From assembly GCA_015179125.1 (NCBI GenBank), contig WHVA01000039.1, forward strand, positions 248,001 through 312,000: a stretch of 64,000 nt of DNA, in the 5' to 3' direction. Positions 1 to 32,711 of this stretch are shown here, piece after piece. Positions within the stretch are counted from its first letter, which is position 1. Every line of letters begins with the position of its first letter. The position numbers were made by a program, and so were the translations under genes. The notes beneath the pieces are model-generated. The model was not told the origin of the DNA. It made no database searches and was given only the letters and a program-made list of their open reading frames with translations. The DNA comes from Gautieria morchelliformis. Its lineage: Eukaryota > Basidiomycota > Agaricomycetes > Gomphales > Gomphaceae.

Positions 1-1
1 C

Positions 2-3000
2 AGCAGAGGGTGGCAACATGGAGGAGCATATCAGAAAGCTCCGTAGTCTCCAAAAACAGCTGCACGCACTCGGCGACTTGGTCAATGACCACGATTTCTG
101 CAATGCATTACTCACCTCCCTACCGCTCCTGGTCACCTTCCTCACCGCCATCAACCCTGCTCTCCCGTGCTCACCTCCGACGCCCTGATCGCGCGTATCA
201 TGGAGGAAGACCGTACTCGGTGTTCAAGCACCGAGACAGCCCTGCGATCCAGGATAGGACCCACGGAAAGGGCCGGAATGGACGCGGTGATGGCGCTACA
301 AAGGGTAAATGCAATAATTGCGGAAAGAAGGGCCACTGGGTCAAGGATTGTTGGGCTAAGGGTGGTGGCAAGGAGGGGGACGCACCTAAATGGTGGAAAG
401 GTGACAAATCCAAAAATTCCGCTAAGCAGGCTACCGAAAATAACGCGCTGCTGATGAATTCACTTTTGCGCCATAGAGTCCGTTGACAACGACGATCACT
501 CGTCCCTTGCTGAAGACCGGACCTACCGTGCTGACATTTCAGCGTCTGACTGGCTGGCAGACACGGGGTCAACGACCCACATAGCCCGGAGCAGGGATCA
601 CTTCGTCGATTTTAAGGCGGAACCGTCCGAGATCGACGGTATCACACCTGGGAGCCCACTGAAAACCCTAGGGCATGGGGTTGTTCAGATGGAGTTCTGC
701 GCCGGTAACCGCACGTTCACGGTGAGACTCACAGACGTGAAACACGCCCCCAATGCGCCGAACAACATACTCAGCGTGGGACGGCTCACGGACGTGGAAC
801 ACGTCGCCTTGTTTACTAACGAGGGCGTGAAGTTCCGCTCCCAATCCGGAACCGTCTTCGCTGAGGGGCGCAAAGTAGGTCGTGTTTACCTCATGCGCGC
901 CCGGATCTGTCCTGGTATCCAGACAGACATCGCTGCTGTGGCCAAGCCGAAGTCCTGGGATACCTGGCACCGGATCCTCGACACGTGAACGTTAGCGCGA
1001 TCAAAGCCATGAAGTTGCATGACCTGGTCACCGGGATGGAAGTAGACACATCTGCGCCGGTCACGCAGTGTGCTGCTTGCATTCAGGGCAAGCAGCATGT
1101 GGACCATTCCCCAAACGTTCGGAGGACATCGTTGCACATGTGGGCGACTTGTCCATCTCCGATGTTTGGGGGCCGGCGAACACTGAGGGCCCAACGCGAG
1201 AGCGGTATTTTTACTCCTTCACCGATGTTAAAAGCAGGTACACAGTGCTTTATTTCAGCCACTCCAAGGACAGCGTCCTCGATCGATTCAAGGAGTATGC
1301 TGCCCTGGTTGAAACACAGACGGGACGTCCGCTCAAACGCTTGCGAAGCGACGGTGGTGGCGAGTATATTAGCACGGCTTTTAGGCTTTTCTGTGCTGAA
1401 AAAGGGATCATCATGGAGTCCACTGCCCCTTATTCCCCAGCTCAGAACGGCATCGCAGAACAATTAAACCGCACACTGTTAGAACACGCACGCGCGATGA
1501 TATTTGCGAAACAGCTGCCCAAGACCCTATGGGCGAGGCCGTCGCTTACGCCTGTTATATCAAGAACAGATCGCCTACGCATGCGCTTGGCACGGATATG
1601 ATGCCCTACCAGGCGTTCTTTGGCAAGAAACCAGATGTCGGGAAGTTGGAGGAATTTGGTAAAAAGTGTTGGATTAAGTCCCTGACCAACGCCGTACTAA
1701 ACTAGAACTGAAGTCCGAGCAACACATCATCTTCACCGGTGTTGCCCCCAACGCAAAAGCCTGGAAATATTACAATGTACACTCGCACCACATCCAAACC
1801 TCCCACAACGTCATTTTCGACGAGACCGACACCACCATCCACCCTGTGCCCGATGACGACGACTTGGAGGCCGCACCGATCGTCAGGAATGCCCCTGGGG
1901 CCGCCCAGTTGGCTCCTGTCCCTGCACCCACTGCCCCTGCACTGATCGCCGTGCCTCCAGGTGGCGTCGTCACAACTGGCGCTGTGGCTGCGGACCCAAG
2001 GGAGGGACTGCGGCGCAGCACCAGGTTTGCGGGTAAGCCCGCTCCTGACTACCGTCACATGCATGAGGGCGAGCGGACTCTGTCAGCGACGGAGATCGTG
2101 ACAGAGCCGACGTCCTATGCAGAGGCGTTACATCAGGATGATTTCCCGATATGGAGAGCGGCGATGGAGACTGAGATGCAGCAGCATGTGGAGGTTGGGA
2201 CATGGGAGCTGGTTGAGTTACCAGCAGGGAAGAACGTCGTTGGGAGCCGGTGGGTATATGCGGCCAAAACAGACGCAGATGGCGCGTTCGAGCTGGGAAA
2301 AGCGAGGCTGGTTGCGCAGGGGTTCACGCAACGTCCCGGCATGGACTACTTCGAAGTCACGTCCCCAGTTGTCCAGCTGGACAGCCTGCGGCTTATCCTC
2401 GTGCTCACTATCCAAAAGGGATGGGAGATTGAGATGATGGACGTGAAAGGCGCGTACTTGAATTCTACTCTAGATGAGGAAATCTACATGCGCCAGCCTG
2501 ACAGCTTTGACGACGGATCCGGACGTGTCCTAAAGCTGCATCGTGCCATTTATGGCCTGAAACAATCAGGTCGTTCTTGGTACAAAAAGCTCACCACGGT
2601 CTTCATCAACGATGGCTTCACCCGTAGTCACGCCGATGACTGTGTTTTCTTCAAGAAAACCGGCGACCGACTCACCATTATCACCATCTACGTCAACGAC
2701 CTCGGGCTATTTGCGAGCACCAAAACGCTAATGGCAAGTGCTAAAGCCCTCCTTCACTCTAACTTCACGGTGAAGGATCTCGGCGAGATGCTCAAGATCC
2801 TCGGCATCAGGGTTGACATTGACCCTGGTCGCGATTCCATTAAGCTCTCGCAGGGTCATTATGTCGATGTCATCGTCCAACGGTTCAACCTAGTCGAAGC
2901 CCCACCTGTTGACACGACCGTCCTCCATGACATCAAGTCCTTGGAGCCACGCTCCAAAGATGACCCCGCGCCAGACGCACCTTACGCTCAAGCGGTTGGA

Positions 3001-3639
3001 TCCCTCATGTACGCCGTCTTGGGTTCCCGCCCCGACATCGCGTTCGCCGTCCAGCAGCTGAGTCAACACACACACGACTACAGCGAGGCTCACTGGATGG
3101 CGGTTAAGCGTGTCATAAGGTACTTGAAAGGCACACGCGACGCGGGCATCGTATTGCGCCGCTCATCTTCCACTCCCCTCATCGAAATCTACTCCGACGC
3201 CGACTTCGCTGGACTCGCCGACTCACACTGAGTTGGCGGCTATGTCTGCCTTTACCACGGGTGCATAGTCGCATGGGTTTCCAAGAAGCAAACTTGGATT
3301 GCCCTCTCCACCACGGAATCCGAGTCCATGGCCTTGATCCCCGGTGTCAAGCACGCTCTGTGGATTCGCCACCTCATCCAGGAGCTCGGCTTGCCCTGCA
3401 CTGACCCGATCCACATCTATTGCGACAATATGCAGACAATCTCCAACATCCACGACGCGTCCCACCATCCCCACACCAAACACCTGCGCGTCGAAGGACA
3501 TTGGGTTCGCGAACTCGTTGATCATGGCGACACCGACATTACTTATGTTCGGTCCGCTGAGAACATCGCGGACATTTTCACGAAGTCTCTGCCGCTTGCG
3601 CAGCACAAGTTTCTGTTTCTTAAATTAGGCATGTTGTGA
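2..3639 (+). pseudogene. Copia-1 gag-pol polyprotein, frameshifted
   Basis: Fragments in all three plus frames make one polyprotein. Gag ends with a CCHC knuckle (CNNCGKKGHWVKDC, near 310-352). The protease active site is WLADTGSTTHIA (near 550-585). The integrase has a zinc-binding end (CAACIQGK), DVWGP, SDGGGEY and an NGIAEQLNRT stretch. A long frame (1846-3229) holds the RT (AQGFTQRPGMDYFEVTSP, DVKGAYLNS, YGLKQSGRSW) and the start of RNase H. The RNase H end follows to 3639 (HTKHLRVE, NIADIFTKSLP). The RT catalytic box reads YVND rather than YVDD, so a catalytic aspartate is lost. A TGA at 3229-3231 splits RNase H. No functional product is expected. Confidence 0.88.
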
Positions 3640-3694
3640 TTTTTCCCCTCATGTATCCATCATATTTCTTTGATTTGTTTCGCTCGGGGGGGTC

Positions 3695-3895
3695 TGTTGA
3701 AGTATCCATCGCTCAACCATTCCTTACTCATCTATGGTCACTCGTGGTTCCACCAGTTCAAGCTCCTCTCGAATCCCATAGTTACAGTAGCTAGTCCACT
3801 GTATATTTTTTTGAGATCTCGCGAGTCGAGGATTATTATTCTTGTCCTTTACTATCACTGCGCTCAAGAAGTGCAATGTTTCTTCTGAGGCTACA
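3695..3895 (+). repeat. 3' LTR of Copia-1
   Basis: The LTR begins TGTTGAAG directly after the G tract and most plausibly ends GGCTACA at 3895, giving about 201 bp with TG...CA ends. No second copy is in the window, so the end is inferred from the end type of the other LTRs here (CTACA, CCACA) and from the match to the right arm stopping at the same place. Confidence 0.6.
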
Positions 3896-4730
3896 TATTG
3901 ATGTATGTGTTTCGCGCGCTCTTGTTTCGAATTCATCATTGACCATTTATTCTACGTGTTTCAATCCTGAAGAGCAGGCGAAAGTCATGGGGCGCGTTTT
4001 TGTATGCTTGTGACAATGCTCCCCGACGGCAAGTTTATTTTGTGTGGGAAGTTTATGTTATCATTGTTCGAATGTGTTTGGAGCTTGAATATAAAGCATT
4101 TTACTTTACTCTGTATGACTCGTCGAGGATGACAACGCGCTGGCACCGCACATGCTCCACACCCCCTACATCTACTTGACACCTTCTCCCTCGCTTCAGC
4201 GGACACATTCCGGTCTAACTCTTGGGGCAAAGGACCTTTCGACGCCGTCATCGTGCAAGCAAGGATCCTCATACAGGGAATGCTCACACTCCTCGCCTCG
4301 CGTGCCATGGGCATGTCATCCAGCATCGCGCAGGGGGGGGCGAGGGAAAACGTGGCGCCGTGCACGCTGGCGGGGCGCGCGCGCGGCACATGCACGGGGG
4401 ACGCTGCTAGTTTACTTACAGTACACAGCAAGCACTGTCTGGCAGAAACTTGAGAGTAATTAAGATGTCAGCAAAAACGAGCGTACCACTGGCTTTGGAG
4501 AATGGCGGGAGATAGACTCCATTTCGTAGGGTAGCTCTGTAGATTCAGACTTTACAGTAATTAGACGTGGCGTATGAAAGGAAGGTAATGGCAGGTGCTG
4601 CCTTAATGTGGGCAGTAGCGATACACCCGGCAGCCAAGCCGACAAGACTACTGATATTTTTCAGGAAGGGAAACCCAAACAACTCTGTGAGAAATACGGC
4701 TGATGAACGATAAGAATGAGATGCCGATAA

Positions 4731-5350
4731 ATTCAGGAGAGCCCCATGGCAGCAGCCGCGGTACAAGCGTGGTGGGGCATCTGAAATAGCTCCGCTGCCT
4801 GAGTTAAGTGCACCCGAGGCACCAACGAGGGACCTGCCGATCAGAAGGATCACCATACATGTAACGTATACGCCCCGTAAGTAATACTGTTATTTGGTGG
4901 ATGGAAGGTATTATATTCTACCTGTGATCGGCAGTTGTGCGTGGAGAGGAGCAAGAATTAAAACTGAAAATATAAAAGGATGGAAGCTGGCGAGGACAAT
5001 CTAGAACAGAAACGTCTCCACACTCCTCCGTGGAGTGCGCACACGAAAAGGTTGCGCCGTAAACTAGCAAGTCAGGACCGGAGCTATGTACACGCGCATA
5101 GAAACGACAGAAGAAGCAAGTAATGGAAGCACCCAGCGCCAAATTCTGATTGACAGCAGAAGCACGACAGGGGCAGAAGCGCCGTCGCGGCAAGTTACCA
5201 AGAGAACGGAAGAAGCCAGATAAGATGTAGCCAGGAACCCGAAGCCGCAGCCTCGGGACACGTGATGGTCAGGGCGGAATTCACCGGGTGCAGGTCACGT
5301 GGGTCGTGGGAGAAACCGTCGTCACGTGGGCGGAGGCAGCAGACGGTTGT
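4731..5350 (-). repeat. dispersed repeat R1, left-arm copy
   Basis: This block matches 40676-41420 in the same orientation with obvious divergence: both contain ATAAATTCAGGAGAGCCC, a GAGTT-GAGTGCACCCGAG block, AGAACAATCT-type stretches before CAGAAACGTCTCCACA, and a TATA-like GTGTATATA at the far end. The right inverted-repeat arm carries the mirror copy at 15865-16484. No convincing coding frame is conserved, so it is treated as a non-coding dispersed repeat. Confidence 0.7.
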
Positions 5351-5459
5351 GTATATAAATAGACCGATCATATCCAAGCGTCACTGCTTCCCCACGCTCA
5401 TTTCCGAAGAAAAGCCCCGCTCGATCAACTCGCTCTAGCGCCTAACATGGCAGTTTATC

Positions 5460-5650
5460 TGAGAATCCTGATCGAAGTGATCGATCGACCGTGGATCAGA
5501 AGTCTGGATGATATACCCATTTAGGGTCGATTCACGTCAAGCGCGCAGGCCGCTTCGCTGCCACGCCACGCCACAAGACACGCATCAGTTTGGGAAGCAG
5601 AAGCCCCGAAGCTTGCAAGCACTCATACCGAGAAGCGCGCGCCAGCTCCG
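5460..5650 (-). repeat. dispersed repeat R2, left-arm copy
   Basis: A segment with GATCGAAGTGATCGATCG, a CCATTTAGGGTCGATTCACGT block and a GCGCGCAGGCCGCTTCG block recurs at 15566-15755 (mirror), 35690-35855 and 50525-50606. Its function is unknown. The palindromic GATCGATC core is conserved in all copies. Confidence 0.65.
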
Positions 5651-5878
5651 ATCTTCGTTTCTCAGCGGGGAAGCGCTCTTCTTGGCATGTCAGTGAAACG
5701 TGGGGAAGCAGACGTGTTGGACACGTGGCGTGTGGCCCGTGCGTGCCGGGCACCCGCATTTGCCGCCAGACTCCCGGACACGGGGAAAAAGTACAATGGC
5801 GTGCTTGTTGGGGGTGCGAGAAGGGTGTAAGTGTGAGCATCGCGCAGTGCGCAGAGGCGGACCGACGCTGAGGTGCTA

Positions 5879-7153
5879 TCAAGCCTGATCCGATCGCGTC
5901 ACCCTTTTGCTAATAAATACCTCTGCCTGTGCCGCAATCTCCATGTCCACAACCCTCTCACTCTCCGGCCTGGTCTTCGACCTTATATCCCCATCCGTGT
6001 CCAGCTCATCCACCCCCTCGCTTGACGCGCCTCCCAATCCCCCTCCTTTCCCTGCGTGTCCTGTATGAAATGGCCCCATGCTCGACCCGCATTAATCAAG
6101 AGGGGCCATCAATGAAATCCATATCCATGCTCCCCTGCACCTCCCACCCGTCCGCGCGGAGCGCAGACGTGATCGCGTCCCACCGGAACGTATCGCTGTT
6201 CGTGCAGACATAGACTGTGTTGAGCCGCCACTCTGCGCTGGCATCGGAAGCGGGTGCCTTTTGGCCCGCGAGTCAATGTGCATCTCTGTCTCATTCGTAT
6301 AATGACCCCCATCAGGATCGCTTCTCTTCATACCCCTCTCAATCCGCCCCCGCAGCCCCTCCTCCCATTCTTCTCGTACACGCCGTACGTGCTGCATCAC
6401 ATCATCGATGGACGGCCAGCAGTGGCGTCCGAATTCGGCATGGTCGGCGGGGGGTTGTAGGCCGCCAAGTGGAGGGGTGTATCTGCAGGAGAGTTAGCTA
6501 GTGGGAGGGCATTGAATGAGGCGAGAAATAAATAATGAAAATGGTAAATGGTGTGGTGAGGAAGCTGACAGGCGCCAAGAGAATGAATAGAGGAAGGCTG
6601 ATATTAGAAGAAATAGACGAGAAGCCAGCCAAGAGCCTAAGAAAACGCAAACGACAAAATGAATGGGAGATAAACTAAGCAGAACATGACAAATGGAAGT
6701 TTCAGGCGGGGGAAGGGACCGGAAAGACAGAATGGATGAGGTGATCCAATACTTCGGCAACAAATTTTTTCGGTTCTTAGGTCATCTAGAAATCAAACGG
6801 GAGGCGACGAAATAGGAGGGAGCGGCAACTGGAATGAACGACAAGGGAGGTGTAGAAAAGTAAGTAGAAGACGTGGAAGAATGACGTGCAGCGATGAAAT
6901 CCAAAAAAAAGGCACGGGATGAGACAAAAGAAGTAGACGAGAAATACCAGACGCGCAGGATGACCAGGAAATGAGGACGCAAGATTGGGGCCACAGACAC
7001 AATAAACGACTAATAAAAACACAGAAAGGCAAGAAAACCCACTGATCTATCCGACCTTCTGTCTCGTTACTGCCTTGCCACCCCGCGCTGTCCTGCACAG
7101 TGCTGCTGAAAGTGCCGAGTCGAAGGTGCACCACGAGCAAGCGGGGCATGGGG
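5879..7153 (-). pseudogene. O-fucosyltransferase-like gene remnant, left-arm copy
   Basis: This is the mirror image of 14062-15336, where the reading is described in full. On the minus strand the pieces run from about 7153 (RLLVVHLRLG) down to the terminal stop at 5879-5881 (VDMEIAAQAEVFI). The exons are not joined in one frame, and the HLRRGD-type motif is degraded. It appears to be a passenger duplicated with the arm rather than an independent gene. Confidence 0.5.
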
Positions 7154-8600
7154 GAAAGCGTGTCGGCCGTGAGGGACGTATCTTCTGGATCAGCGTGCTG
7201 GCCTGGAGGTACGGTGTCCGCCGATTGCCACGTTGAAGAATTCGTGGAGTCGTGTGGCGGCTCTGCCGCGCCGTCCATGCCGTCAGGGCTGCACGCCCGG
7301 GGAGAATTCCGCCTTCGTCGTCATAACGTTGGCGATGCGCGTCAGACGGATCATCACGCCCCGCACCCGCAATCCACCCCCACACCCTTAAATTGTGCTG
7401 CGCTGCACCATGCACGAGCGGACACCAGTGAAGTCTGTGAGCACAGGGGAGTCGAGCAGCGCGGGGAGGAGGGGGAGGATGCGGAGTACTGAAGATTCTG
7501 GCGGAATAATGTTAGTGTTTCGTTTGTTATTGGACTGAGACGAAGGGAAGGCAACGGGATAACACTGATAAAAATTATGACGCAGAAGCAGAGTAGAGCC
7601 GTGTCCAGTTCTAGGCCCGGGTCCCCAGCTCGCTAGCTAAAGTCTTCGGACAAGACCCACCTCCGCCTCATCCTATATCGCGCCCTCCCCCATCCAACTA
7701 CAATGTTCGCGGTCTCCCATGACCTGGGCATCTTCTCGCATATCATCACATACAACGCACGGGGACACAAAGACCCGCACTGCCATGCACAAAGCCGACC
7801 CACACGCCACCACGTGGCCACGTGACGTGTCCCCACATCGAACACCGCGCACGTGCACAAGCCACAGCTAGCGCCCTGGTGGCAGTGCAAACAGATCTCC
7901 GCGATGACGTAGATGTGCATGGAGCCAGGGGCGTTGCTTCTGGCCTTCTCCAGCTTCTTTACGATATCATATCTAATCAATGAGCGGCTTGATTCGATGA
8001 TGAGCGGAGAAGCGAGTGCAGCCCCGATCCTTTCCATCTCCCCACCTCCCCATCTCCCTAGTCGTCCGCACCTCGCCGTTCTGGCCTCCGCCACCCAGCA
8101 GTGCACAGCACAGCCGCTATCGCACCCTCTCCGCCATACAATCGTCTTTGTCACCGGCCCCCCGTCCAGGCCTGAGTAATTGAGTGGCCGGCCACAGCAA
8201 CTCAACTATTCACCAGTGGATCAAGCAGTGATGTGTGGCAAAGAGCGCCGATGCGTGCGGGTGAGCGTGAAAGCTGCCATAGGGCATGTGGGACTGACTG
8301 GGCTTCGAGCTTCGAGAGACTGAGGGCCAGGATGGGTCGGAGGACGACGACGAAGTCGGACCCGAGTCTGTGGAAGCGTCGAGGGGCTGCACTGTGTACG
8401 TCCACGTAACACGCACTGCCATGAAGCGTCGCGTGGCATCCAGAGTCATGGCGCTTCCTCCAGACAGAGTGAGGCGTTTCATTCATACATGGCATAAACA
8501 TATAAGCGCAGGAGAATACACGGTGAACTGATCACGACACAAGGCATTAAAAGCATTAAAAGCCCCGTGGGATCAAGGGTTTGTGTAGTGATCGGGGGTT
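7154..8600. other. left-arm DNA without recognised genes
   Basis: Several frames of 60-190 codons are open here, but they exist identically in the mirror arm on overlapping frames. They lack recognisable motifs and read as GC-driven chance ORFs. No RNA gene or simple repeat was seen. Confidence 0.5.
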
Positions 8601-8702
8601 GATTCTCACAGACTGGGCATCGTTGGTTCCGAGCTCTGTGGTATCTGTATCGCCGAAACCGACTCGGTTGGCACTCGACTGCGCGACAAAGGGAAGATAT
8701 CT

Positions 8703-10800
8703 TCATCGTCGGACAAAGTGACCTTCAGATTTCTCGGCTAATAATCGACACCAGCGCTCTTCTGGCCATTTGCGCTTGAGGTCCGTAATGTCACCTAGTT
8801 CATGTTTCACAAAGCAGGCGACGTCATCGACAGGCTTCGGGTCAATATCATTTAGGGACATGGACAGCACGTGCTCCTTCCCATGAAGCGCGCCCAGGAT
8901 GTCTTTTTCGGCACGTGAAGTGATAAGAAGGCGGAGATTAGGCGGCAGTTCCGCAGCTTCGTTGCCAAGGACAGACAAGAGAGCCTGGCGAGATACCTGG
9001 TCTCCGCTCTCATCTAATGCATCAATGACGATCACCGTCGGTCCAACGGTGGTTAGGCCCTGGGAGGGATCTAGAATGAACCTCTTGAACTGCTCACTAG
9101 GCACGATTGTGGTCCGAAGTTCTCGATTATCCCGAACCACATTCAACAACAATTCTCTGCGTTCTGGATCTAGATCAGCCAGACCACGAGCAATTGTGCT
9201 GAAGACATATTTCGGGGAGCGTTCTGCCTGAAGAGCGCGGTCAAAACAATACGACGATCCGAGACGTTTGAGCCGGTGAAATCGTCGAGCGACCTCGTGC
9301 GCAATCGCGGATTTGCCGGCACCTGCAACGTCATTCAAGAAAAATATCCGGGGGGTGTCGTCGCTATCCTGGTTGGCCCAATTGCAGATCTCCTCAATAA
9401 CTTTCTCGCGAGTACCCGGCAAACAGCCTTTTTGAGGATTGCAACCAGCCCCTTTTGTGTAGAGCATGTCATCAAGCAGAAATTCCTCGACTGGTTGCAA
9501 TGTGTATTAGCCTCGGGAAAGGCCCAAAGTCAGAAAACTTACAGATGTCGCCGACAGCATCCATAACACGTAGTACAGTGACTTCAACACGTCGTACAGT
9601 GATTTCAGTATGAATCACGGCATGTTGTTCTAAATTCAGCTTGAGTTTATTGAAAGATTCCCGGTATTTTGTGACCTTGCTGTCGACATCCGACCATAGA
9701 TTTTTCACGGTTCTTTTCCCTGAACAAAGATCGTCAGGTATGGCCACCTGACAGTGGGTTCAACATACCGAATCCCTTGTTTTTTGCGCAGGCGCAAATA
9801 AAGTAGATGCATTTCTAGCACCGCTGCGGTCACCTCTGCGACGAAACTACTACATACTATTGTTCCTCCTTAACTTCTCAGACGGCAGCATGGGGGCCCG
9901 GGGTAACAGGGTAATTTCAGGATCCGAGAGACTTGTCATGGAGGGCGATCAAGCAAACCGTGTACATGAGATGACCTGGGAGACCGCTGGCGTTTGAACC
10001 ATACCTCGGAGATCCCATCCACGATCTCGGTAAACAGCCTGATCTTTTCCAGGAGTGGATCCCAGGCCGCCGATATGGTTTCGAGGGTATTGACGGTGGA
10101 AGTGGCGGCATCTGCCCCAGGCCCTCCAACAACAAATGGCGACGGCACCGGGTTCATCTTATCGACCTCTCCCATCCGCCCAACTGCTTCGTTCAACTGG
10201 GTGTCCCGCGCCTCGTCGGACGTCGCGAAAGACGAAATGGTGAACTCTAGGACAGTCTGAACCTCATGCGTCCTCCCTGCCTTATATGATTTTTGCAGTT
10301 TGCGAGCAAGTGCTGCTGTGTTCGATGTTTACATGTGCATTCCGTCGATGAGCGACGAGGACTGACCTCCTGTTGCTCCTTCTGCAACCAGTAACTCAAT
10401 CCTCTCCTTTGCAAAGCCGATGTATTCATCACGAGTAAAGATGCGGCGCCCGTAGACTTCGATTCCTATTACGGAAGACCCATGAAAGTCCTTGCTGGGC
10501 ATGGATTTAAGTCGCGTGAAGATAACATTGGAATTAAACGCACAAATAGAAACACTCATTCCACAAGGCAGTCTTGCCTCTCGCAGATACCTCAGTCTTC
10601 TTGACATCCCTCTCGACAAAGAGTTTTACGTAGTAGTTACCAGGACGTTTGCAGAGCAGTCCGACATTGGGAAGGTGCTCGCATTTCAAGCCTGTTGTCG
10701 ACCGGCAAGAGTCAGTATACCATAGATAGCGCAAACGAAAGAGTCTTTCCAGCAACTTTAATTCCTGCAGGAATACTTCTGGGTGGAGTGAACAGTTGGC
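8703..10800 (-). pseudogene. NLR-like STAND NTPase with N-terminal C2 domain, 3' truncated
   Basis: A spliced minus-strand gene. Exon to 10544 and exon 10367-10494 join across a 49-bp intron (10495-10543) to give a C2-like domain (YYVKLFVERDVKKTEV, WNECFYFKDF, VIGIEVYGRR). A second intron is 10277-10366. The next exon (down to about 9997) carries the helical region typical of fungal NLRs (AAWDPLLEKIRLFTEIVD). A further exon ends at 9543, and the 52-bp intron 9491-9542 leads to the NTPase exon with Walker A (VAGAGKSAIAHEVA), Walker B (VIVIDALDESGD) and LLITSRAEKDI. The frame runs into the inverted repeat at 8714 and stops after a few codons, so the rest of the NACHT domain and any C-terminal repeats are missing. 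An N-terminal paralogue lies at 33695-34840. The family makes intracellular sensors of the incompatibility/innate-recognition type; that role is inferred from family membership. Confidence 0.8.
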
Positions 10801-11640
10801 TCTAGAGAAGCGATCGTGGGCTTACGGTGCTGTCACAGTGCCCTCGACGTTGTTCATCGTGCGCAGTGTTCGAGGTAGGTGTAGACGGAAAGAGACGACG
10901 TGAGGCGCCGCCGCACACTCCGACTTCGGACCTGTCAAGACATGGCACTCACCTAGCTCCACGTGTTCCCAGCGTCAATGTGAAGCGCCCGCCGATGTCA
11001 CGGCTCCGTCTACGGTAGGTACTCGGCCGTCTTCGTACCGTGTCTCAGAGGCAACGCGGCTACATATCATGTCGTGCCTTGGAGTGAGTGAGCTCCGTGC
11101 ACTCCTGGGCAAGTTTCGTGGATCCGTTGCCGCGCACACAGCATGTGCATCAACGCAAGGAGTCTATCCCGCCCTTATACATATGAGGTCAGTACACGTT
11201 CATACCTGCAGTTTTTTCGACTTGTTCCCATTCCCAAAGCAGCGCTACCAGATCTCCAAGTGCGACACTTGTCCCTCCAGTCCATTCCCGACTTTGCAAG
11301 CTTGCCTAGACCCTCCAATGCCCCACGTCCCGTTTCACCAGTTCTCCCTCAGCGGACAGCGACCGCATAGTCCCCAGGTCAAGCCCTGAGAGCGTCCAAC
11401 GCCGTCCACTTCCGAATCGTCCAGTACCAAACCGCCCCCAAATGGTCCAACCTTCGTTCCCCGCCAACGTGCTCTATGACCCCGCAAGCCGCTGTCTTTA
11501 CGGGCGTTTGCACGAACCAAATCCAGCCAAGCCCCCAAACCTCCCAAGACTACGACAACTCCGCCTGGTGGCGGCCCCGCGAAACATAAAAATCTCTCGC
11601 CCCATCATCTGACGCGGTACCAAAGCCACGTTCATCTCAG
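10801..11640. other. intergenic region between divergent NLR and membrane-protein genes
   Basis: This lies between the 5' ends of two divergently oriented genes and probably holds both promoters plus undetected first exons of the membrane-protein gene. Two frames (11069-11389, 11143-11370) are open but show no motif. I could not place a start codon. Confidence 0.4.
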
Positions 11641-12609
11641 CTTTGGCTTAATTCTGGCTGCTCTTGCCAAATTACAAGGTGGAAATCTCTCACTCATTGG
11701 AGGCATAGTAGGTAAGGTCTGGCATTATCATGGGTTAGTCTTTTTCTTCCAAAGGCGCACACGCGGCAGCGTGGTTGCAGAGTAAGTTGATCGCTTCCAC
11801 TTCACCTTGATCGAGCTATGCGTTGTAGTAATATGCTTTATCCCCAGGTTTCTTCTCCCTCATCCTGACGATTCTAATGTGGATAATGAGTGATCAATTG
11901 CCGTATGGGCGTTGCAAATCAGTCAGATTTGTCTTCATATTTGGGGTGGATGTGCCGGCCTCTGGGTCGGGGCGTATTGCAGCTCTTACCTTCGCCTCAA
12001 TATCACTGGCGGTATTCACGGTTTACACACTCACCCCACTTTGGGTTTGGGTGGGATTTCTCTGTTTCAAAATGACTAAGACATCCGACGAACGGAAAAC
12101 AAGAAGAGTCCTCGATGCATACCGCCGTGGTGGGGGTTGGCTACCCGCCATACATGACTGTCAGTGACTCCAACCCCGCATTCCTAGTTCCTCGTTAACA
12201 CGCCAACGCAGTCACCCGCATGGGCGTTTTAGTGTCCGGGATATTTATCTTTGGGTACTTTGTTTCAATGACGGAACTTATCATCAGCCGTAGCCATGCT
12301 GAATTTAGTGCGTAACACGTTCCGAGGAACTGGGCGGTTTGTACTAGTAATCATCTTACAGGTCCCGCTACGAGGACTTTCGGACAGGTATGCACTGAAT
12401 CAAGTTCCGGACGACAAGTCTCGTCTTATAATCATCAGGTATTAGCATGGACCCTTGTGATACCTCCTTGTGCCGCGCTGTTGACTGCTATCGTGGAGGG
12501 GTCCGACGATAAAGATATCTTCCCTTTGTCGCGCAGTCGAGTGCCAACCGAGTCGGTTTCGGCGATACAGATACCACAGAGCTCGGAACCAACGATGCCC
12601 AGTCTGTGA
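11641..12609 (+). CDS. multi-pass membrane protein, spliced, first exon(s) not resolved
   Basis: Consistent GT-AG introns link these exons: 11641-11711, 11755-11781, 11848-12159, 12212-12307, 12362-12387, 12439-12609. Introns are 43, 66, 52, 54 and 51 bp, and phases match at each joint. The product has hydrophobic segments (FGLILAALAKL, FFSLILTILMWIM, IAALTFASISLAVFTVYTL, MGVLVSGIFIFGYFVSM, FGQVLAWTLVIPPCAALL) separated by short loops, then a polar tail ending PTMPSL. The RTFGQ-VLAW segment resembles a common family of uncharacterised agaricomycete membrane proteins. The last exon crosses 12501 and ends inside the right arm, so this arm holds the natural 3' end. The start codon and N-terminal helices upstream of 11641 are not resolved. 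Confidence 0.75.
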
Positions 12610-14061
12610 GAATCAACCCCCGATCACTACACAAACCCTTGATCCCACGGGGCTTTTAATGCTTTTAATGCCTTGTGTCGTGATCAGTTCACCGTGTATT
12701 CTCCTGCGCTTATATGTTTATGCCATGTATGAATGAAACGCCTCACTCTGTCTGGAGGAAGCGCCATGACTCTGGATGCCACGCGACGCTTCATGGCAGT
12801 GCGTGTTACGTGGACGTACACAGTGCAGCCCCTCGACGCTTCCACAGACTCGGGTCCGACTTCGTCGTCGTCCTCCGACCCATCCTGGCCCTCAGTCTCT
12901 CGAAGCTCGAAGCCCAGTCAGTCCCACATGCCCTATGGCAGCTTTCACGCTCACCCGCACGCATCGGCGCTCTTTGCCACACATCACTGCTTGATCCACT
13001 GGTGAATAGTTGAGTTGCTGTGGCCGGCCACTCAATTACTCAGGCCTGGACGGGGGGCCGGTGACAAAGACGATTGTATGGCGGAGAGGGTGCGATAGCG
13101 GCTGTGCTGTGCACTGCTGGGTGGCGGAGGCCAGAACGGCGAGGTGCGGACGACTAGGGAGATGGGGAGGTGGGGAGATGGAAAGGATCGGGGCTGCACT
13201 CGCTTCTCCGCTCATCATCGAATCAAGCCGCTCATTGATTAGATATGATATCGTAAAGAAGCTGGAGAAGGCCAGAAGCAACGCCCCTGGCTCCATGCAC
13301 ATCTACGTCATCGCGGAGATCTGTTTGCACTGCCACCAGGGCGCTAGCTGTGGCTTGTGCACGTGCGCGGTGTTCGATGTGGGGACACGTCACGTGGCCA
13401 CGTGGTGGCGTGTGGGTCGGCTTTGTGCATGGCAGTGCGGGTCTTTGTGTCCCCGTGCGTTGTATGTGATGATATGCGAGAAGATGCCCAGGTCATGGGA
13501 GACCGCGAACATTGTAGTTGGATGGGGGAGGGCGCGATATAGGATGAGGCGGAGGTGGGTCTTGTCCGAAGACTTTAGCTAGCGAGCTGGGGACCCGGGC
13601 CTAGAACTGGACACGGCTCTACTCTGCTTCTGCGTCATAATTTTTATCAGTGTTATCCCGTTGCCTTCCCTTCGTCTCAGTCCAATAACAAACGAAACAC
13701 TAACATTATTCCGCCAGAATCTTCAGTACTCCGCATCCTCCCCCTCCTCCCCGCGCTGCTCGACTCCCCTGTGCTCACAGACTTCACTGGTGTCCGCTCG
13801 TGCATGGTGCAGCGCAGCACAATTTAAGGGTGTGGGGGTGGATTGCGGGTGCGGGGCGTGATGATCCGTCTGACGCGCATCGCCAACGTTATGACGACGA
13901 AGGCGGAATTCTCCCCGGGCGTGCAGCCCTGACGGCATGGACGGCGCGGCAGAGCCGCCACACGACTCCACGAATTCTTCAACGTGGCAATCGGCGGACA
14001 CCGTACCTCCAGGCCAGCACGCTGATCCAGAAGATACGTCCCTCACGGCCGACACGCTTTC

Positions 14062-15336
14062 CCCCATGCCCCGCTTGCTCGTGGTGCACCTTCGACTCGG
14101 CACTTTCAGCAGCACTGTGCAGGACAGCGCGGGGTGGCAAGGCAGTAACGAGACAGAAGGTCGGATAGATCAGTGGGTTTTCTTGCCTTTCTGTGTTTTT
14201 ATTAGTCGTTTATTGTGTCTGTGGCCCCAATCTTGCGTCCTCATTTCCTGGTCATCCTGCGCGTCTGGTATTTCTCGTCTACTTCTTTTGTCTCATCCCG
14301 TGCCTTTTTTTTGGATTTCATCGCTGCACGTCATTCTTCCACGTCTTCTACTTACTTTTCTACACCTCCCTTGTCGTTCATTCCAGTTGCCGCTCCCTCC
14401 TATTTCGTCGCCTCCCGTTTGATTTCTAGATGACCTAAGAACCGAAAAAATTTGTTGCCGAAGTATTGGATCACCTCATCCATTCTGTCTTTCCGGTCCC
14501 TTCCCCCGCCTGAAACTTCCATTTGTCATGTTCTGCTTAGTTTATCTCCCATTCATTTTGTCGTTTGCGTTTTCTTAGGCTCTTGGCTGGCTTCTCGTCT
14601 ATTTCTTCTAATATCAGCCTTCCTCTATTCATTCTCTTGGCGCCTGTCAGCTTCCTCACCACACCATTTACCATTTTCATTATTTATTTCTCGCCTCATT
14701 CAATGCCCTCCCACTAGCTAACTCTCCTGCAGATACACCCCTCCACTTGGCGGCCTACAACCCCCCGCCGACCATGCCGAATTCGGACGCCACTGCTGGC
14801 CGTCCATCGATGATGTGATGCAGCACGTACGGCGTGTACGAGAAGAATGGGAGGAGGGGCTGCGGGGGCGGATTGAGAGGGGTATGAAGAGAAGCGATCC
14901 TGATGGGGGTCATTATACGAATGAGACAGAGATGCACATTGACTCGCGGGCCAAAAGGCACCCGCTTCCGATGCCAGCGCAGAGTGGCGGCTCAACACAG
15001 TCTATGTCTGCACGAACAGCGATACGTTCCGGTGGGACGCGATCACGTCTGCGCTCCGCGCGGACGGGTGGGAGGTGCAGGGGAGCATGGATATGGATTT
15101 CATTGATGGCCCCTCTTGATTAATGCGGGTCGAGCATGGGGCCATTTCATACAGGACACGCAGGGAAAGGAGGGGGATTGGGAGGCGCGTCAAGCGAGGG
15201 GGTGGATGAGCTGGACACGGATGGGGATATAAGGTCGAAGACCAGGCCGGAGAGTGAGAGGGTTGTGGACATGGAGATTGCGGCACAGGCAGAGGTATTT
15301 ATTAGCAAAAGGGTGACGCGATCGGATCAGGCTTGA
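14062..15336 (+). pseudogene. O-fucosyltransferase-like gene remnant, right-arm copy
   Basis: Three pieces lie in family order. First, about 14062-14180, RLLVVHLRLGTFSS and a following W/N-rich stretch correspond to the HLRRGDF donor-site motif of fungal O-fucosyltransferase-like proteins, with RRGD degraded to RLGT. Second, after an acceptor at 14731-14732, HCWPSIDDVMQHVRRVREEW is followed by an acceptor at 14981-14982 and VYVCTNSD with WDAITSALRADGWEV, ending with TGA at 15117-15119. Third, VDMEIAAQAEVFI ends with TGA at 15334-15336; the diverged copy at 50283 reads AEVFMGNGVTR, closer to the family's FVGNG motif. Stops between the pieces and motif decay make this a pseudogene. The family name is from memory and moderately sure. 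Confidence 0.5.
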
Positions 15337-15565
15337 TAGCACCTCAGCGTCGGTCCGCCTCTGCGCACTGCGCGATGCTCACACTTACACCCTTCTCGCA
15401 CCCCCAACAAGCACGCCATTGTACTTTTTCCCCGTGTCCGGGAGTCTGGCGGCAAATGCGGGTGCCCGGCACGCACGGGCCACACGCCACGTGTCCAACA
15501 CGTCTGCTTCCCCACGTTTCACTGACATGCCAAGAAGAGCGCTTCCCCGCTGAGAAACGAAGATC

Positions 15566-15755
15566 GGAGCTGGCGCGCGCTTCTCGGTATGAGTGCTTGC
15601 AAGCTTCGGGGCTTCTGCTTCCCAAACTGATGCGTGTCTTGTGGCGTGGCGTGGCAGCGAAGCGGCCTGCGCGCTTGACGTGAATCGACCCTAAATGGGT
15701 ATATCATCCAGACTTCTGATCCACGGTCGATCGATCACTTCGATCAGGATTCTCA
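15566..15755 (+). repeat. dispersed repeat R2, right-arm copy
   Basis: Mirror of the left-arm copy and same orientation as 35690-35855, sharing the GCCTGCGCGCTTGACGTGAAT block and the GATCGATCACTTCGATCA core. Confidence 0.65.
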
Positions 15756-15864
15756 GATAAACTGCCATGTTAGGCGCTAGAGCGAGTTGATCGAGCGGGG
15801 CTTTTCTTCGGAAATGAGCGTGGGGAAGCAGTGACGCTTGGATATGATCGGTCTATTTATATAC

Positions 15865-16484
15865 ACAACCGTCTGCTGCCTCCGCCCACGTGACGACGGT
15901 TTCTCCCACGACCCACGTGACCTGCACCCGGTGAATTCCGCCCTGACCATCACGTGTCCCGAGGCTGCGGCTTCGGGTTCCTGGCTACATCTTATCTGGC
16001 TTCTTCCGTTCTCTTGGTAACTTGCCGCGACGGCGCTTCTGCCCCTGTCGTGCTTCTGCTGTCAATCAGAATTTGGCGCTGGGTGCTTCCATTACTTGCT
16101 TCTTCTGTCGTTTCTATGCGCGTGTACATAGCTCCGGTCCTGACTTGCTAGTTTACGGCGCAACCTTTTCGTGTGCGCACTCCACGGAGGAGTGTGGAGA
16201 CGTTTCTGTTCTAGATTGTCCTCGCCAGCTTCCATCCTTTTATATTTTCAGTTTTAATTCTTGCTCCTCTCCACGCACAACTGCCGATCACAGGTAGAAT
16301 ATAATACCTTCCATCCACCAAATAACAGTATTACTTACGGGGCGTATACGTTACATGTATGGTGATCCTTCTGATCGGCAGGTCCCTCGTTGGTGCCTCG
16401 GGTGCACTTAACTCAGGCAGCGGAGCTATTTCAGATGCCCCACCACGCTTGTACCGCGGCTGCTGCCATGGGGCTCTCCTGAAT
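15865..16484 (+). repeat. dispersed repeat R1, right-arm copy
   Basis: Mirror of 4731-5350 and diverged relative of 40676-41420. The TATA-like TATTTATATACAC near 15853-15865 lies at its edge, so it could carry promoter activity, but no downstream gene is evident. Confidence 0.65.
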
Positions 16485-17400
16485 TTATCGGCATCTCATT
16501 CTTATCGTTCATCAGCCGTATTTCTCACAGAGTTGTTTGGGTTTCCCTTCCTGAAAAATATCAGTAGTCTTGTCGGCTTGGCTGCCGGGTGTATCGCTAC
16601 TGCCCACATTAAGGCAGCACCTGCCATTACCTTCCTTTCATACGCCACGTCTAATTACTGTAAAGTCTGAATCTACAGAGCTACCCTACGAAATGGAGTC
16701 TATCTCCCGCCATTCTCCAAAGCCAGTGGTACGCTCGTTTTTGCTGACATCTTAATTACTCTCAAGTTTCTGCCAGACAGTGCTTGCTGTGTACTGTAAG
16801 TAAACTAGCAGCGTCCCCCGTGCATGTGCCGCGCGCGCGCCCCGCCAGCGTGCACGGCGCCACGTTTTCCCTCGCCCCCCCCTGCGCGATGCTGGATGAC
16901 ATGCCCATGGCACGCGAGGCGAGGAGTGTGAGCATTCCCTGTATGAGGATCCTTGCTTGCATGATGATGGCGTCGAAAGGTCCTTTGCCCCAAGAGTTAG
17001 ACCGGAATGTGTCCGCTGAAGCGAGGGAGAAGGTGTCAAGTAGATGTAGGGGGTGTGGAGCATGTGCGGTGCCAGCGCGTTGTCATCCTCGACGAGTCAT
17101 ACAGAGTAAAGTAAAATGCTTTATATTCAAGCTCCAAACACATTCGAACAATGATAACATAAACTTCCCACACAAAATAAACTTGCCGTCGGGGAGCATT
17201 GTCACAAGCATACAAAAACGCGCCCCATGACTTTCGCCTGCTCTTCAGGATTGAAACGCGTAGAATAAATGGTTAATGATGAATTCGAAACAAGAACGCG
17301 CGAAACACATACATCGATATGTACATCACTAAAAGCGCGCGCTGGTGGCGTGACATTGTCACGCCTGGCATGTCTGCTGAGACACGCGCCTCCGTGGTTC

Positions 17401-17621
17401 TGTGGAACGAAGGAGATATAATAGTCTGATATTCTACGATCTGTACAAGATCATCTGTCCTTATATACTAATTATGATGTTCCTATATTACCAATCCCTT
17501 CGAGCTGCTGTGCCGATGCGATGCCGGTGTACCAGCAACCCGGGGTCGAGAGCGATCTCGAACCTCCGGCTAAATGCGTGCCGGCTCTGCCTCGGCGGTG
17601 TCATCGTCCCGATTACTAACA
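17401..17621 (-). repeat. solo LTR of the Copia-3 family
   Basis: The reverse complement runs TGTTAGTAATCGGGACGATG to CTTCGTTCCACA, matching the LTRs at 51455-51677 and 55738-55960 with moderate divergence. It is flanked by the 5-bp direct repeat GGTTC (17396-17400 and 17622-17626). The intact target duplication and missing interior indicate LTR-LTR recombination after insertion. A TATATAAG box is retained. Confidence 0.93.
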
Positions 17622-17649
17622 GGTTCACCCTGACCGAGGATCGCCGTCG

Positions 17650-17812
17650 CGCTGCCACCCTGGCCTCAGGTGCCCACCAGTCGCCAGGGTGCCCTAATTT
17701 CACCAGTCCATGGCTAGGCCGCTCGCGATCACGCTGCCAGGGTGGCCTCAGCTGCCCGCCAGCCGCCAGGGTGCCGTGCCTTCCCCAGTCCATCACTACG
17801 CCGCTCGCCATC
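17650..17812. repeat. two-copy tandem repeat, 82-bp period
   Basis: Two diverged units start CGCTGCCA at 17650 and 17732. Each contains a GCCTCAG-TGCCC block, CGCCAGGGTGCC, CCAGTCCAT and GCCGCTCGC. Short inverted CCACCCTGG/CCAGGGTGG pairs make the units fold-prone. No coding signal was seen in 17627-18040. Confidence 0.7.
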
Positions 17813-18044
17813 GCTCGCCATACTAGAGCCGGGGAGTATCACTACTCGCCGGCTCTAGTTTGGCAAGCAAGTGCAGTGGTACTTAGGACTAGGAGTACTG
17901 CTCATAACTTGAAGGCGAAACCCACTCGCCGCTGTTGAAGTTCGATCTGGGGTTTGATCACGGCGCCGAGCGGGTTCAAGACTTGGCAATCGGACTTCAA
18001 GTTTGTCACGGTGAGTCCGTATCCTTGACGTTCACCAACCCGAC

Positions 18045-18440
18045 ATGCCTCTTGACTGCATTTGTGGCAGGGAGTTCACGCGGGACAACGCGTTGACCAG
18101 GCACTTGTCAACGTGCTCCGTGCACCTCAGGGCTAACAGGGATGCCTCGCACATCGTCCACCGTTCCAACAAGTGAAAAGGCCCGGAGTCCGAGGTCACT
18201 GGCGGTGTCGATGACCGACGGTACGCCAAACGCCACCCGGGGCGCACCATGGCACTACTAGTGCGTCCCGGGAAGGTCCTGTTCGGCCACAACCAGTCGA
18301 CACGCGCACGGGGCTCGCTGGCTTCGGCGATCGCCTGCGCCTGCGCAGTTCAGCGTGCAGTCGGGAGCGGCAGCATCGTTAAGTGTGGCAACGCCGTTTG
18401 TGGCGTGTCTGGGGTATTATGCCGAAAATGTATATTATGA
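18045..18440 (+). pseudogene. C2H2-type zinc-finger protein remnant
   Basis: From ATG at 18045 the frame reads a C-x-C...H-x4-C finger (CICGREFTRDNALTRHLSTC) and stops at TGA 18174-18176. The same frame stays open from there to 18440, so one TGA interrupts a product of about 131 codons. Single N-terminal fingers of this kind occur in front of some agaricomycete DNA-transposon proteins, but no transposase domain is visible. The TGA could instead lie in an intron beginning GTGAAA at 18173, so decay is likely but not proven. Confidence 0.4.
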
Positions 18441-18694
18441 TTACTATTATTTATGTTAGCCACTATTAAGCTTGACGTTGAATGTCCTCCGCGCGGTCGG
18501 CATATAGACTCGGACTAATATAACGTATGGACGCGTTGTGGATCCATCACACATAATCCACTGCGTCCAAGGTCACGTGCTCCCAACTACTTATGTTCGA
18601 CGGCCACTCTTCGCCATGCCCGAGGCTTTTGTTCCCCACTTCCACCTCCCATGCCACCCAGGTCTGGCAGCACTTGCTCGCAGCCCCACTCTGA

Positions 18695-18935
18695 TGAAAA
18701 TGTCTTTGCGCTAAAGACAGGTTATCTCAGTGAACGGCAGTTTCACTATCTATATAGTTAAGTACCTAAAGACAGGTTATCTATGGGGATATGGTAAGTA
18801 AACTGTCTGTCCAACGATAGGTAAGGTCTCACCTCAGTGAACGGCAGTTTCACTGAGGTGCGACGATATTCTAGCGAGCTTATATAATAGCGTCCTGGTC
18901 CGTGCGTTCTCTGCTTACTAACACTAACGCTAACA
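18695..18935 (-). repeat. 3' LTR of Copia-2
   Basis: On the minus strand it runs TGTTAGCGTTAG to ACATTTTCA. A G/A-rich polypurine tract lies inward of it at 18936-18944. It contains an 11-bp-arm hairpin (CACCTCAGTGA ... TCACTGAGGTG, near 18831-18861) and a duplicated AAAGACAGGTTATCT block. Confidence 0.93.
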
Positions 18936-18942
18936 CTCTCCC

Positions 18943-21900
18943 TTAAGCTGAACGCACTCCAACGGACATTCGAAGGCGAGCGAGCTGTGGAGCCGGCAGG
19001 GCCTTCGTGAGCATGTCCGCCGGCATGTCAGTTGTAGGGCAGTAGTCGATGGAAATCAGGCCGCGTTTGACCACATCGCGGATGAAGTGGTATCGTACGT
19101 CAATATGCTTGGTGCGTGCCTTGTATTGGTCGTTCTTCGAGACTGATATCGCTGATTGGTTATCGCAGTATAGGGTGGCGGCTGTGTGAGAGGTCGAGCG
19201 ATTTCGGCGATGAACATGCGGATCCATAGGGTTTCCTTCGCTGCGTGAGTGGCAGCTATATATTCCGCTTCGGTTGTGGATAACGCGACGATGGATTGTT
19301 TTTTCGAGCTCCAGGAAACGGCACCTCCGTCTATGGTGAACACGTAGCCGGATATCGAATATCGATGGTGCTGTGAGGCTCCATCGCCATCCGAAAACCC
19401 TTCGAGTCCGGTGTGTTCTTGTTTTCCTGGTTTCGCCCATGTCCACCGATTCCTGACACCGATCACCAGCTTCTGGTCGATCGTTCCTTTCAGGTAACGA
19501 AAAACTCGCTTCACCTCTTCCCAATGAGGCCGTCCCAGATTCTGCATGAACTGCGACAAGAAGGTGACGGCGAACATGATGTCCGGCCTCGTTCCGAGGG
19601 CTGCGTACATTAGGGATCCGATGGCCTCGCGGTATGGGACTCCCTGGACGGCTTCGTAGTGGCGCGGCGTTACAGGGCATTGGGCTAGGCTCAACTTGTG
19701 ATGCGGGTTGAGTGGGGTCGATAGGCCCTTTGCATCTTGTAGTCCGAATCTCTCCAGTATCTTTGTAATATATGCGTGCTGCGAGAACGATATTGTTCGA
19801 GCCTTCCTGTCCCTTGTGACTTCGATGCCTAGCATCCAGTGTATGTCGCCTAGGTCCTTGATTTTGACCTCCTGGCTAAGTTCCGACTTAAACTCGCGGA
19901 TGACCTCTCTCGAGCTTCCAGCGATGGTCATGTCGTCGACGTCTGCAGCGACAAATAGACTGTTATTGTCTTCATGCTTAAAAAAGACGGCGTGTTCAAC
20001 CCGGCATCTCCTAAACTGGAGTTTGAACATGATCGCACACAGGTGGTCGTACCACTCGTGCCTGGACTGTCTCAGTCCGTAGATCGCTCGTTTTAGGAGG
20101 CATACGTGGTTCTCTTTGCCTCGAACCTCGTATCCTCTGGGCTGGCGCATGTAGATGGTCTCCCTCAGCCGTGCATTGAGGTAGGCTCCTTCCACATCTG
20201 TCTGCTCCAATTCCCAATCATTTCTGACCGCCAGAGCCGCGATGATCCGGATCACTGAGAGCTTCGCTGTCGGTGCGAAGGTCTCGTTATAATCTATGCC
20301 TTCGACTTGCGTGAACCCCTGGGCGACGACCCTGCTTTTGCGGCTGACAAGGTTGCCGCTCGCGTCGTGCTTATAGTGGAGAACGATCCGACTTCCAACG
20401 ATGTTCGCGTCCTTAGGTGGCTCTACCAGTTCCCAGGTACCAACCTCTTCGTGCTGTTTCAACTCCTTTTTTATTGACGTGTCCCATTCTAGCCAATCAT
20501 CGAGTTTTCTAGCTTCTTCGACGTTCTTGGGGTCATTTCCCACACTTTGTGCTGCTAGCATCGCGTACTCCATATACTCCCCCTCGAGTTCGACGTCGTC
20601 GTGGTCCCAATCGACGGGGTACTCGGAATCCTGGAGGGCTGCGATGGCAGCGGTCTCCCTGGAGTCCCCACCTGAGTTTTGGGGTGGGATCGGCATGCCA
20701 CGCGGATATACGGGTGCGTTTGCACGTCCGGAGCTCGTGCCCTGGCCCTGAGCAATATCGCGGACATACGCTGACGGTTTGCGTAGTCTATGTCCGCGCC
20801 CTTGCTCGGGTTCCGTTGCAGGTTCAGGCGGCTCGAAACCTTCGAGCGGGTCTACTTGCGGTGCTTGCGGATGCGGAGCTAGTTCTTCGCTGGTATTTTC
20901 TTGAGGTAAGTCATGATTTTGGTTTGGAGCAACGCACTGACTGCGCTGTGTGCTCTCCCCTTCATTCTCGGCCGATACATTGCTTGGACCAACGGTGACG
21001 TTGTTGTCGAACACAATATTGTGTTCGTCTGTCACTCGTTGTTTCCCCGGCCAATACACTCAGTGAGCTTGACTTTGCCTGCTATATCCAACCCAGCGCC
21101 CTTCATCAGCTTTTGCGTCTAGCTTCCCGCGATCCTCCTTTAGCACCCAGACCTTGGCACCCCATTCCGGTAAGTTTGCCAAATCCGGTTTCTTGTTGAA
21201 CATGAGCTCATAGGGGGTTTTCCCGTCCAACAGGTAAGTGGACGTGCGATTCTTGAGCCAGACCGCATGCTGAACGGACTCTGGCCATAGAAACTTGGGT
21301 AAATCGGCTGCGTAGTGCATGGCGCGTGCATGCTCGATCAAGGTGCGGTTTAGATGTTCTGCTACGCCGTTCTGCTCGGGCGTATCGTGAACGGTAAGAC
21401 TTCGGACTATTCCCTTCGACTTCAGATGCTGATCGAACTCCTCGGATAGATATTCTCCCCCTCGATCACTTTGAAGTCATTTGACTTTCCCGCCATGCTG
21501 TGTTTCTATCCAAGCCTCGTACTGCTTGTAGAAAGTAAGTACTTCACTTTTCCTTTTCATTGGTTCGACGCGTGACCAGCGAGTGAAATCATCGGTAAAG
21601 GTGACAAAGTATTCTCTCCCATCGTAGCTCTGGGGTGTGGTAGGTCCCCATACGTCGCTATGTATTTTTTCACCGAGCTTTGTAGCTCGCGGCCCTATCC
21701 GTTCCCTAGGAATAGGTTTGCGCGTCATTTTCCCTTGCGCGCAAGAGGTACAGAACGTAGGTACGCTCTTCTTATCTATCTCAATGCCGGTGATGATGCC
21801 TCTGATTAAGAGGCTTTTTATGGCGCGCGGGGAGATGTGACCCATCCGGCGATGGAGCTCGTCGATGGTGAGGACTTTCTGCACGGCGTTGGCCGATTCT

Positions 21901-23173
21901 GTAGGTGGTGCGTGTTCCACCTTGTACAGTCCATCTCTGAGCGGTATCTTGCCCACAGTCGTGCCTTTCGCGTCTCGGATCGTGCAATGCTGATCGCGTA
22001 GCAATACGGCGAATCCAGCTTTATCACATCGCACTAGCGATATCAATGTGAATGCCAAGTCCTGGCAATAGAGTACGTCCTTCAGCGTTATGGGGGTCGT
22101 TGTTTTCCCATTCGGGATGACAACACGCATGTCTCCAACGCCTGTCGCGGTGAAGATCGTCTGTTCGGCTGCGGCAATTCTTCGGGGTGGGATCTCTTTG
22201 AAGGTGGTGAACCGATGGCGATCTGGGGACATGTGAGTCGAGGCTCCCGAGTCATAGACATCGACTTCGGTTCCTTTGTGCTTGCTACTCTCCCGAGAGA
22301 GTATGTGAACCGGAGAATGTGGTGGTGAAGGCCCACTCGCTGTCCTCGGTCACAGCATTTACTGACTCGCTCCCCTTCTTTTTATCGCCGTCCTTCTCCT
22401 TTTTCCCTTTTGATCTACAATCAGCTTTTATATGCCCCTTTTTACCGCATTTCCAGCACTCAATATCAGACTTCCCGGCATTGTTAGAGCTGTCGGTGCG
22501 TCTGCCTTTTCCACGACCCTTCGCGGCTGTGAGTGCGCTCTCGGTAGCTTTAAGCTGCCGCTCCTCAATCTTGAGCCGTTCGAACTCGTCGAGTAGGCTC
22601 TGGATGACCATATCGGGTGTGAGTGTGACTTGCGCGTGCGTAGCTGACAACGAGATAGCGTTGATGAGTGGTCGGTACCCTTTTGTGCATTTTCATGAGA
22701 GCTTCGAGGTGGGTGCGAACATTCGACTCGTCCTCACACTTCATCTCGTACATCCTGCGCCGTATATCGACCTTGACCGTGAGAGCTCTACTCTCGTGCT
22801 TTGCACATATCGCCTCCCAGATTTCCTTCGCTGAACTGAGCTTCCGAACCTCTATCAAGAGTGAGTCCGGTATTGTCGTGAAGATCTGTGCAGTAATTAA
22901 GGCCTCGCGTTGGTGATATTCATCCCAACGCTTCTCTGCCTTCTCGAGTGCCTCCTCCTCGTCCTCATCCAGGACCTGGTTCGGAGGGTACGTCGGGATC
23001 GGGGCTGGTATCCGAGCTGTGCCATCGAGGTGTCGTAGCACACCCTTGTTTGCCGCGAGGGTAGCCCTCGTCTGTATCTTCCACGTTACCCAGTTCGACC
23101 CATCCCGGGCGAGCTTGGGAATTGCGAAAGACTTTGCGCCGCTGGTAGGTACTGTACTATCACCGGGGCCCAT
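18943..23173 (-). pseudogene. Copia-2 gag-pol polyprotein, disrupted
   Basis: Gag starts at ATG 23173, inside the primer-binding site (MGPGD). A single-base change in the A run near 22682-22690 shifts gag into the frame carrying the CCHC knuckle (CWKCGKKGHIKADC). A second shift near 22290-22300 leads to the protease (DSGASTHMS) and integrase (CTSCAQGK, DVWGPT). TGA at 21477-21479 precedes LQSDRGGEYLSEE, and TGA at 21060-21062 precedes VYWPGKQRV. The long frame 19056-21059 is the RT (AQGFTQVEGIDYNETFAP, YGLRQSRHEWY, catalytic box ADVDD) and most of RNase H. A last shift near 19190 leads to the RNase H end (KHIDVRYHFI, MLTKALP). The near-identical LTRs suggest these lesions are young. Confidence 0.9.
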
Positions 23174-23418: not shown

Positions 23419-23487
23419 TCTGACTCCAGTCGAACGACACACTCGGGCCCCACGCGGTCGGGTACCTCTACTGGCCACTCGGCTCCT

Positions 23488-32200: not shown

Positions 32201-32214
32201 TACCCCGCCTCCGA

Positions 32215-32700: not shown

Positions 32701-32711
32701 CTCCCACTGTC

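Follow-up and report, generated by a model that had tools for sequence, protein, structure and literature searches.

A fungal palindrome among NACHT genes, with inner arms probably homogenised by gene conversion

In 2003 Rozen et al. reportedly described arm-to-arm gene conversion in palindromes of mammalian sex chromosomes. We compare here with such systems a palindrome found in a window of 64,000 nt, i.e. positions 248001-312000 of contig C437 in a 122-Mb assembly of 1113 contigs, whose setting is a fungal immune-receptor-like (NACHT) gene cluster. The fungal nature of the DNA is indicated by 26 hydrophobin (PF01185) matches above the cut-off, against 0 of 14 control genomes. In the covered part of one source, mammalian sex-chromosome palindromes have arms more than 99% identical around a spacer, and this identity is read as arm-to-arm gene conversion (PMC8981503). 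The palindrome of the window shares with them the >99% identical inverted arms, the spacer and the reading by conversion. It differs in being fungal, in having arms of ~8.6 kb (transposons not counted) and in being known from one assembly, whereas the mammalian arms are large and their conversion was tested across species (same part of PMC8981503).

The palindromes of the willow W chromosome, in the passages covered, combine arm stretches above 99% identity with others at 96-99% broken by indels, and the regions of conversion are limited (PMC7023750). Like the palindrome of the window they have retrotransposons in the arms and zones of mixed identity; the willow arms carry NB-ARC genes. They differ by their location on a sex chromosome, by 20-kb stretches among four arms and by a sister species that supports conversion (PMC7023750, same passages). 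By analogy with what these two sources describe in the parts covered, the palindrome of the window may work like the homogenised sex-chromosome palindromes (PMC8981503, PMC7023750).

The palindrome of chromosome 14 of Zymoseptoria tritici resembles that of the window in being fungal and flanked by Copia-type elements. It is itself large, much larger than the one described here, and lies on an accessory chromosome; no homogenised arms are mentioned in the passages covered (PMC3681731). In yeast, as far as the covered part of the source goes, short inverted repeats are homogenised by template switching, one arm serving as template for the other with a possible inversion of the spacer. The arms and spacers are nevertheless very short there, and the 4.45-kb tract of the window would point to recombination instead (PMC8604942). 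For basidiomycetes, a literature search found no gene conversion associated with inverted or segmental duplication, and one on gene conversion among fungal NACHT paralogues listed two papers; the wording was narrow and this is not proof of absence.

The two inner arms, recovered by a repeat search of the window, extend from 3892 to 8714 (left, + strand) and from 12501 to 17323 (right, - strand, the reverse complement of the left). They measure 4823 nt each and flank, on one chromosome, a spacer of 3786 nt (8715-12500). Paired positions add up to a constant 21215, and the arm-to-arm alignment contains 7 mismatches and no gap. The preliminary description had announced a nearly perfect 4.8-kb inverted repeat around a 3.8-kb spacer, with a constant coordinate sum and about seven differences: this is exact to the base, and the self-alignment that it proposed as a check recovers both arms over 4823 nt with the same 7 mismatches. 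Its view that the contig is not simply mirrored also holds, as seven base differences separate the arms of a real inverted duplication. Among the matches listed in the 122-Mb assembly (best 40 of 396 candidates) the arm is found at ~100% at two places only, both in the window, the next-best match being a partial one at 90% in contig C183; chance pairing is thus excluded.

The mismatches, which are transitions in all seven cases, lie at positions 3899, 3919, 3941, 3957, 4247, 4253 and 8704. Six of them fall within the outermost 362 bp and the remaining one (8704) is 10 bp from the inner end. Between them the arms are identical over 4450 bp (4254-8703), a run with a probability of ~1.3e-7 if seven differences were placed at random. 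From 0 differences over 4450 sites, our own arithmetic gives a 95% upper bound of ~0.07% for the inner divergence.

Relatives of the arms (rows L007 and L016 of the comparison being one place, in contig C498) allow the odd base to be identified at several sites. The right arm is the odd one at 3899 (9 of 9 rows), while the left arm is the odd one at 3919 and 3941 (10 of 10 rows each) and at 3957, where the relatives have C in five rows, G in one and a gap in four. At 4247 both arm bases are present among 14 rows, at 4253 the right-arm base occurs in one row out of 14, and at 8704 the left arm differs from the sole relative covering the site. The odd bases being on the left at some sites and on the right at others, mutations have occurred on both arms, which rules out a one-sided, RIP-like mutation although all seven differences are transitions. 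Inside the arms, segments 5379-5662 and 5664-5876 (and their mirror) are in line in both arms but in mutually opposite orientation in relatives; C673:39768-40103 also carries these pieces in line.

In other parts of the genome, copies of the inner segments show differences of 164/1730 (9.5%) in C498, 177/2758 (6.4%) in C183 and 18-19/202 (~9%) in C201, and none of the arm reading frames tried contains a Pfam family above the cut-off. With relatives 6-9.5% away, sequence constraint fails to explain the identity of the arms, and coding constraint was discarded on both grounds.

The outer ends of the inner arms are interruptions of homology by transposons, not limits of homology. On the left, the arm segment continues past 3892 to 3870-3872 in 8 of 9 distinct relatives, the ninth (L018) starting at 3906. 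A stretch of 22 bp of arm homology is present at 3870-3891 (+ strand), and its right partner starts at ~25621. Before it, the left arm is interrupted by a Copia LTR retrotransposon (+ strand), which occupies 1-3869 of the window and starts outside it, at C437:247378. Its target-site duplication, AGTGC, is at C437:247373-247377 and at 3870-3874 of the window; its 3' LTR is 3695-3869, with two differences between the LTRs over 175 sites.

On the right, an element inserted in the arm occupies 17324-25620. The dinucleotide TA is duplicated at 17322-17323 and 25621-25622, the ends of the element are CATCAC.../...GTGATGAC, and the arm continuation missing at 17324 picks up at 25621-25622. The sequence from 17324 also occurs in C377, C768 and C300, in each case beside a left neighbour unlike the arm; C377 and C768 being 99% alike, these represent only two independent sites. 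The far end (~25619-25620) agrees with matches in C300, C832, C406 and C337, which end at 25618-25619. The element contains an LTR insertion of 0.22 kb (~17400-17622) and a nested Copia element (18695-23418, - strand) with 241-bp LTRs differing at one site and the target-site duplication TCTGA. Further right, a LINE-like non-LTR retrotransposon (26100-32202, + strand) with RVT_1, RNase H, a poly-A and a 12-bp duplication (CCCCGCCTCCGA) separates two pieces of the right outer arm. The reading frames of this element are split.

When the inserted elements are skipped, arm homology resumes in register for ~3.8 kb beyond both outer ends. By BLAST, C437:243592-247377, which lies to the left of the window and of the Copia element, is mirror-homologous to 25640-26099 (93.7%) and 32200-35596 (93.1%). 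The proximal piece of the right outer arm (25622-26099, - strand) has its partner at C437:~246924-247377, and the distal piece (32200-35596, - strand), with a NACHT-like stretch inside, at C437:243592-246938. Further outward, no mirror homology appears among the matches listed for L009 1-5591 nor for 35597-41700 and 42200-48200 of the window, with C437 covered from 238001 rightward.

The joined alignment of the outer arms has 154 substitutions over 3778 sites, including a divergent patch. Without this patch (-1900 to -1500) the count is 94/3398 (2.8%), and 85/3350 (2.5%) when the ragged outer limit is also left out. The outer arms have ~24 indels, i.e. 27 gap events minus two that correspond to duplicated target sites in the join and one at the ragged limit, and the inner arms have none. 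The bound of ~0.07% on the inner divergence is a small fraction of these 2.5-2.8%, and the drop occurs at 4253/4254, within homologous sequence and away from any arm end. Within the patch, at -1826 to -1529 of the left arm (C437:~246175-246472), the outer arms differ by 52 substitutions over 277 aligned sites; C498 agrees with the right copy, leaving the left copy as the odd one.

Part of the outer arm is not private to the pair. Between -2356 and -623 the right arm differs from the left arm at 102/1703 sites and from C498 at only 70/1742, which indicates a dispersed family for this part and makes the outer divergence a weak clock for the inverted pair. Two divergent intervals account for most of this excess closeness; without them, left-right, left-C498 and right-C498 differences are 44, 63 and 55 of 1383 respectively, the left-right value being slightly the lowest. 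For the distal piece, the best match in the genome is the mirror partner C437:243592-246938 (93%), among 43 matches listed; its positions 1-755 have no other match among these 43, and from 2053 on C498 is 90% similar. On these alignments it is the far outer part, confined to the two arms among the matches listed, that carries the case for an older pair. The arms are nevertheless much more alike in the core than the age of the palindrome would allow (7/4823 against 94/3398), with the limit that the outer arm is partly a dispersed family.

The two inner junctions are not equivalent. The single-copy spacer contains a 3'-truncated NACHT (NPHP3_N) gene on the - strand, of a type abundant in this genome, and the left arm is joined within its reading frame at 8714|8715. 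Among the matches listed there (best 40 of 230 candidates), the NACHT side has 38 non-self matches; every one of them starts at precisely 8715, and not one spans the break. Past this point the frame runs on for 46-290 residues in 12 of 12 fetched relatives, which represent 11 distinct places (L038 and L039 coincide; L030 and L031 are 99.9% alike), while that of the window stops after four residues (F-V-R-R, then stop). No match crossing 8714|8715 and the frames of relatives running on, this is the new junction, at which the NACHT gene is cut; no microhomology was seen at it. Conversely, nine non-self matches extend as far as 12500|12501 and eight of them continue across it. A C201 match enters the arm for 179 bp at 91.6%, and this junction is the older, native one.

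We propose, with a probability of roughly 0.6, that an older inverted duplication lies in the NACHT-gene cluster and that its inner 4.45 kb became homogeneous recently, gene conversion between the arms being the probable cause, as judged from the sequence of one assembly. A block would have been duplicated in inverted orientation, with its new inner junction inside the NACHT gene at 8714|8715 and 3.8 kb left single-copy, as the junctions and the collinearity suggest. Transposons then entered both arms, as the target-site duplications show. The left arm received a Copia element; the right arm received a LINE and a TA-duplicating element in which LTR elements are nested. Finally, one arm would recently have overwritten the other along the 4.45 kb that separate the spacer from the zone disrupted by transposons, through a non-reciprocal recombination (gene conversion or an equivalent repair synthesis), the outer arms keeping their ~2.8%; this last step is suggested by the pattern of divergence.

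Outer homology beyond the transposons at ~2.8% and a change of rate inside homologous sequence make it look as if the duplication predates the present identity of its core. The preliminary description had read the arms as a recent inverted duplication. The near-identity of the inner arms is recent, but it would not date the duplication, and a duplicated unit of 4.8 kb is not supported either, homology extending ~3.8 kb further out on both sides. The LTRs of the left Copia differ at 2/175 sites, against 0/4450 in the inner run, so the last arm-to-arm copying probably postdates that insertion, two LTR differences being a small count. A single conversion so recent would be a lucky draw, and recurrent rather than single conversion is mildly favoured.

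One recent copying event fits the data nearly as well, although as an explanation we consider it unlikely. A break in the left block would have invaded the homologous right block and copied ~4.45 kb, up to 8714, before its end was joined bluntly into the NACHT gene. In that case the outer arms alone would be old and the left inner arm a new product. This agrees with the change of rate within homologous sequence and with a far end that is a unique junction without microhomology. It also agrees with the native state of the right inner junction, C201 keeping the order of the arm segments and the spacer end with ~5 kb between. It nevertheless gives no account of how the older inverted pair ended on its inner side. 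The difference at 8704, 10 bp from 8714|8715, is what one expects where an older arm stayed unconverted at its margin, although a copying error would explain it as well.

An artefact of assembly or polishing is decidedly unlikely. True arms would differ more, reads of the two copies having been mixed in mid-arm and the ends anchored by their flanks. Differences restricted to the arm ends are also a product of repeat collapse, and the assembly, with its 1113 contigs, has pairs of 99.9%-identical stretches. But the outer arms of the same palindrome keep 2.8% divergence and indels, so copies this divergent are not generally collapsed here; moreover, arm-specific bases exist at both ends, two of them also present in relatives, and the window contains no N.

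A simple recent inverted duplication of 4.8 kb accounts for the near-identity and the sharp ends but is barely plausible, both outer ends being transposon insertion sites with duplications beyond which homology resumes in register at lower identity. As for 3892-17323 being one transposon with long TIRs, this is ruled out: its outer ends are insertion sites of other elements instead of sharing a target-site duplication of their own, and no further copy of the whole unit is found, both 100% arm matches being in the window among the matches listed.

To return to the proposed old palindrome with a homogenised core, arms so similar could let the spacer flip. The palindrome might even be a standing recombination device in the NACHT-gene cluster: transposons would insulate the outer arms, the core would keep converting, and individuals of the population would carry the spacer and its NACHT gene in either orientation, a source of receptor diversity. 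We regard this as highly unlikely. Near-identical inverted arms are easily misdated as recent duplications; the outer homology and the target-site duplications of the window suggest that identity dates the last inter-arm copying rather than the origin of the palindrome. Should this hold, it would be a compact fungal example where the homogenised zone has its border at transposon insertions, and the limitation of conversion tracts by heterologies would be testable in a haploid-culturable organism, at a receptor gene cluster.

Other near-identical stretches were encountered. Two pairs of contigs (L004/L005, i.e. C970/C60, and L030/L031, i.e. C683/C450) are 99.9% identical over ~4.7 kb and are possibly unmerged haplotypes. 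In the window, 36954-41698 (4.7 kb) is 99% identical to C683:20965-25710, to C93:4878-9615 and to ~4.1 kb of C648:274885-278941, and is probably a recent mobile or segmental repeat.
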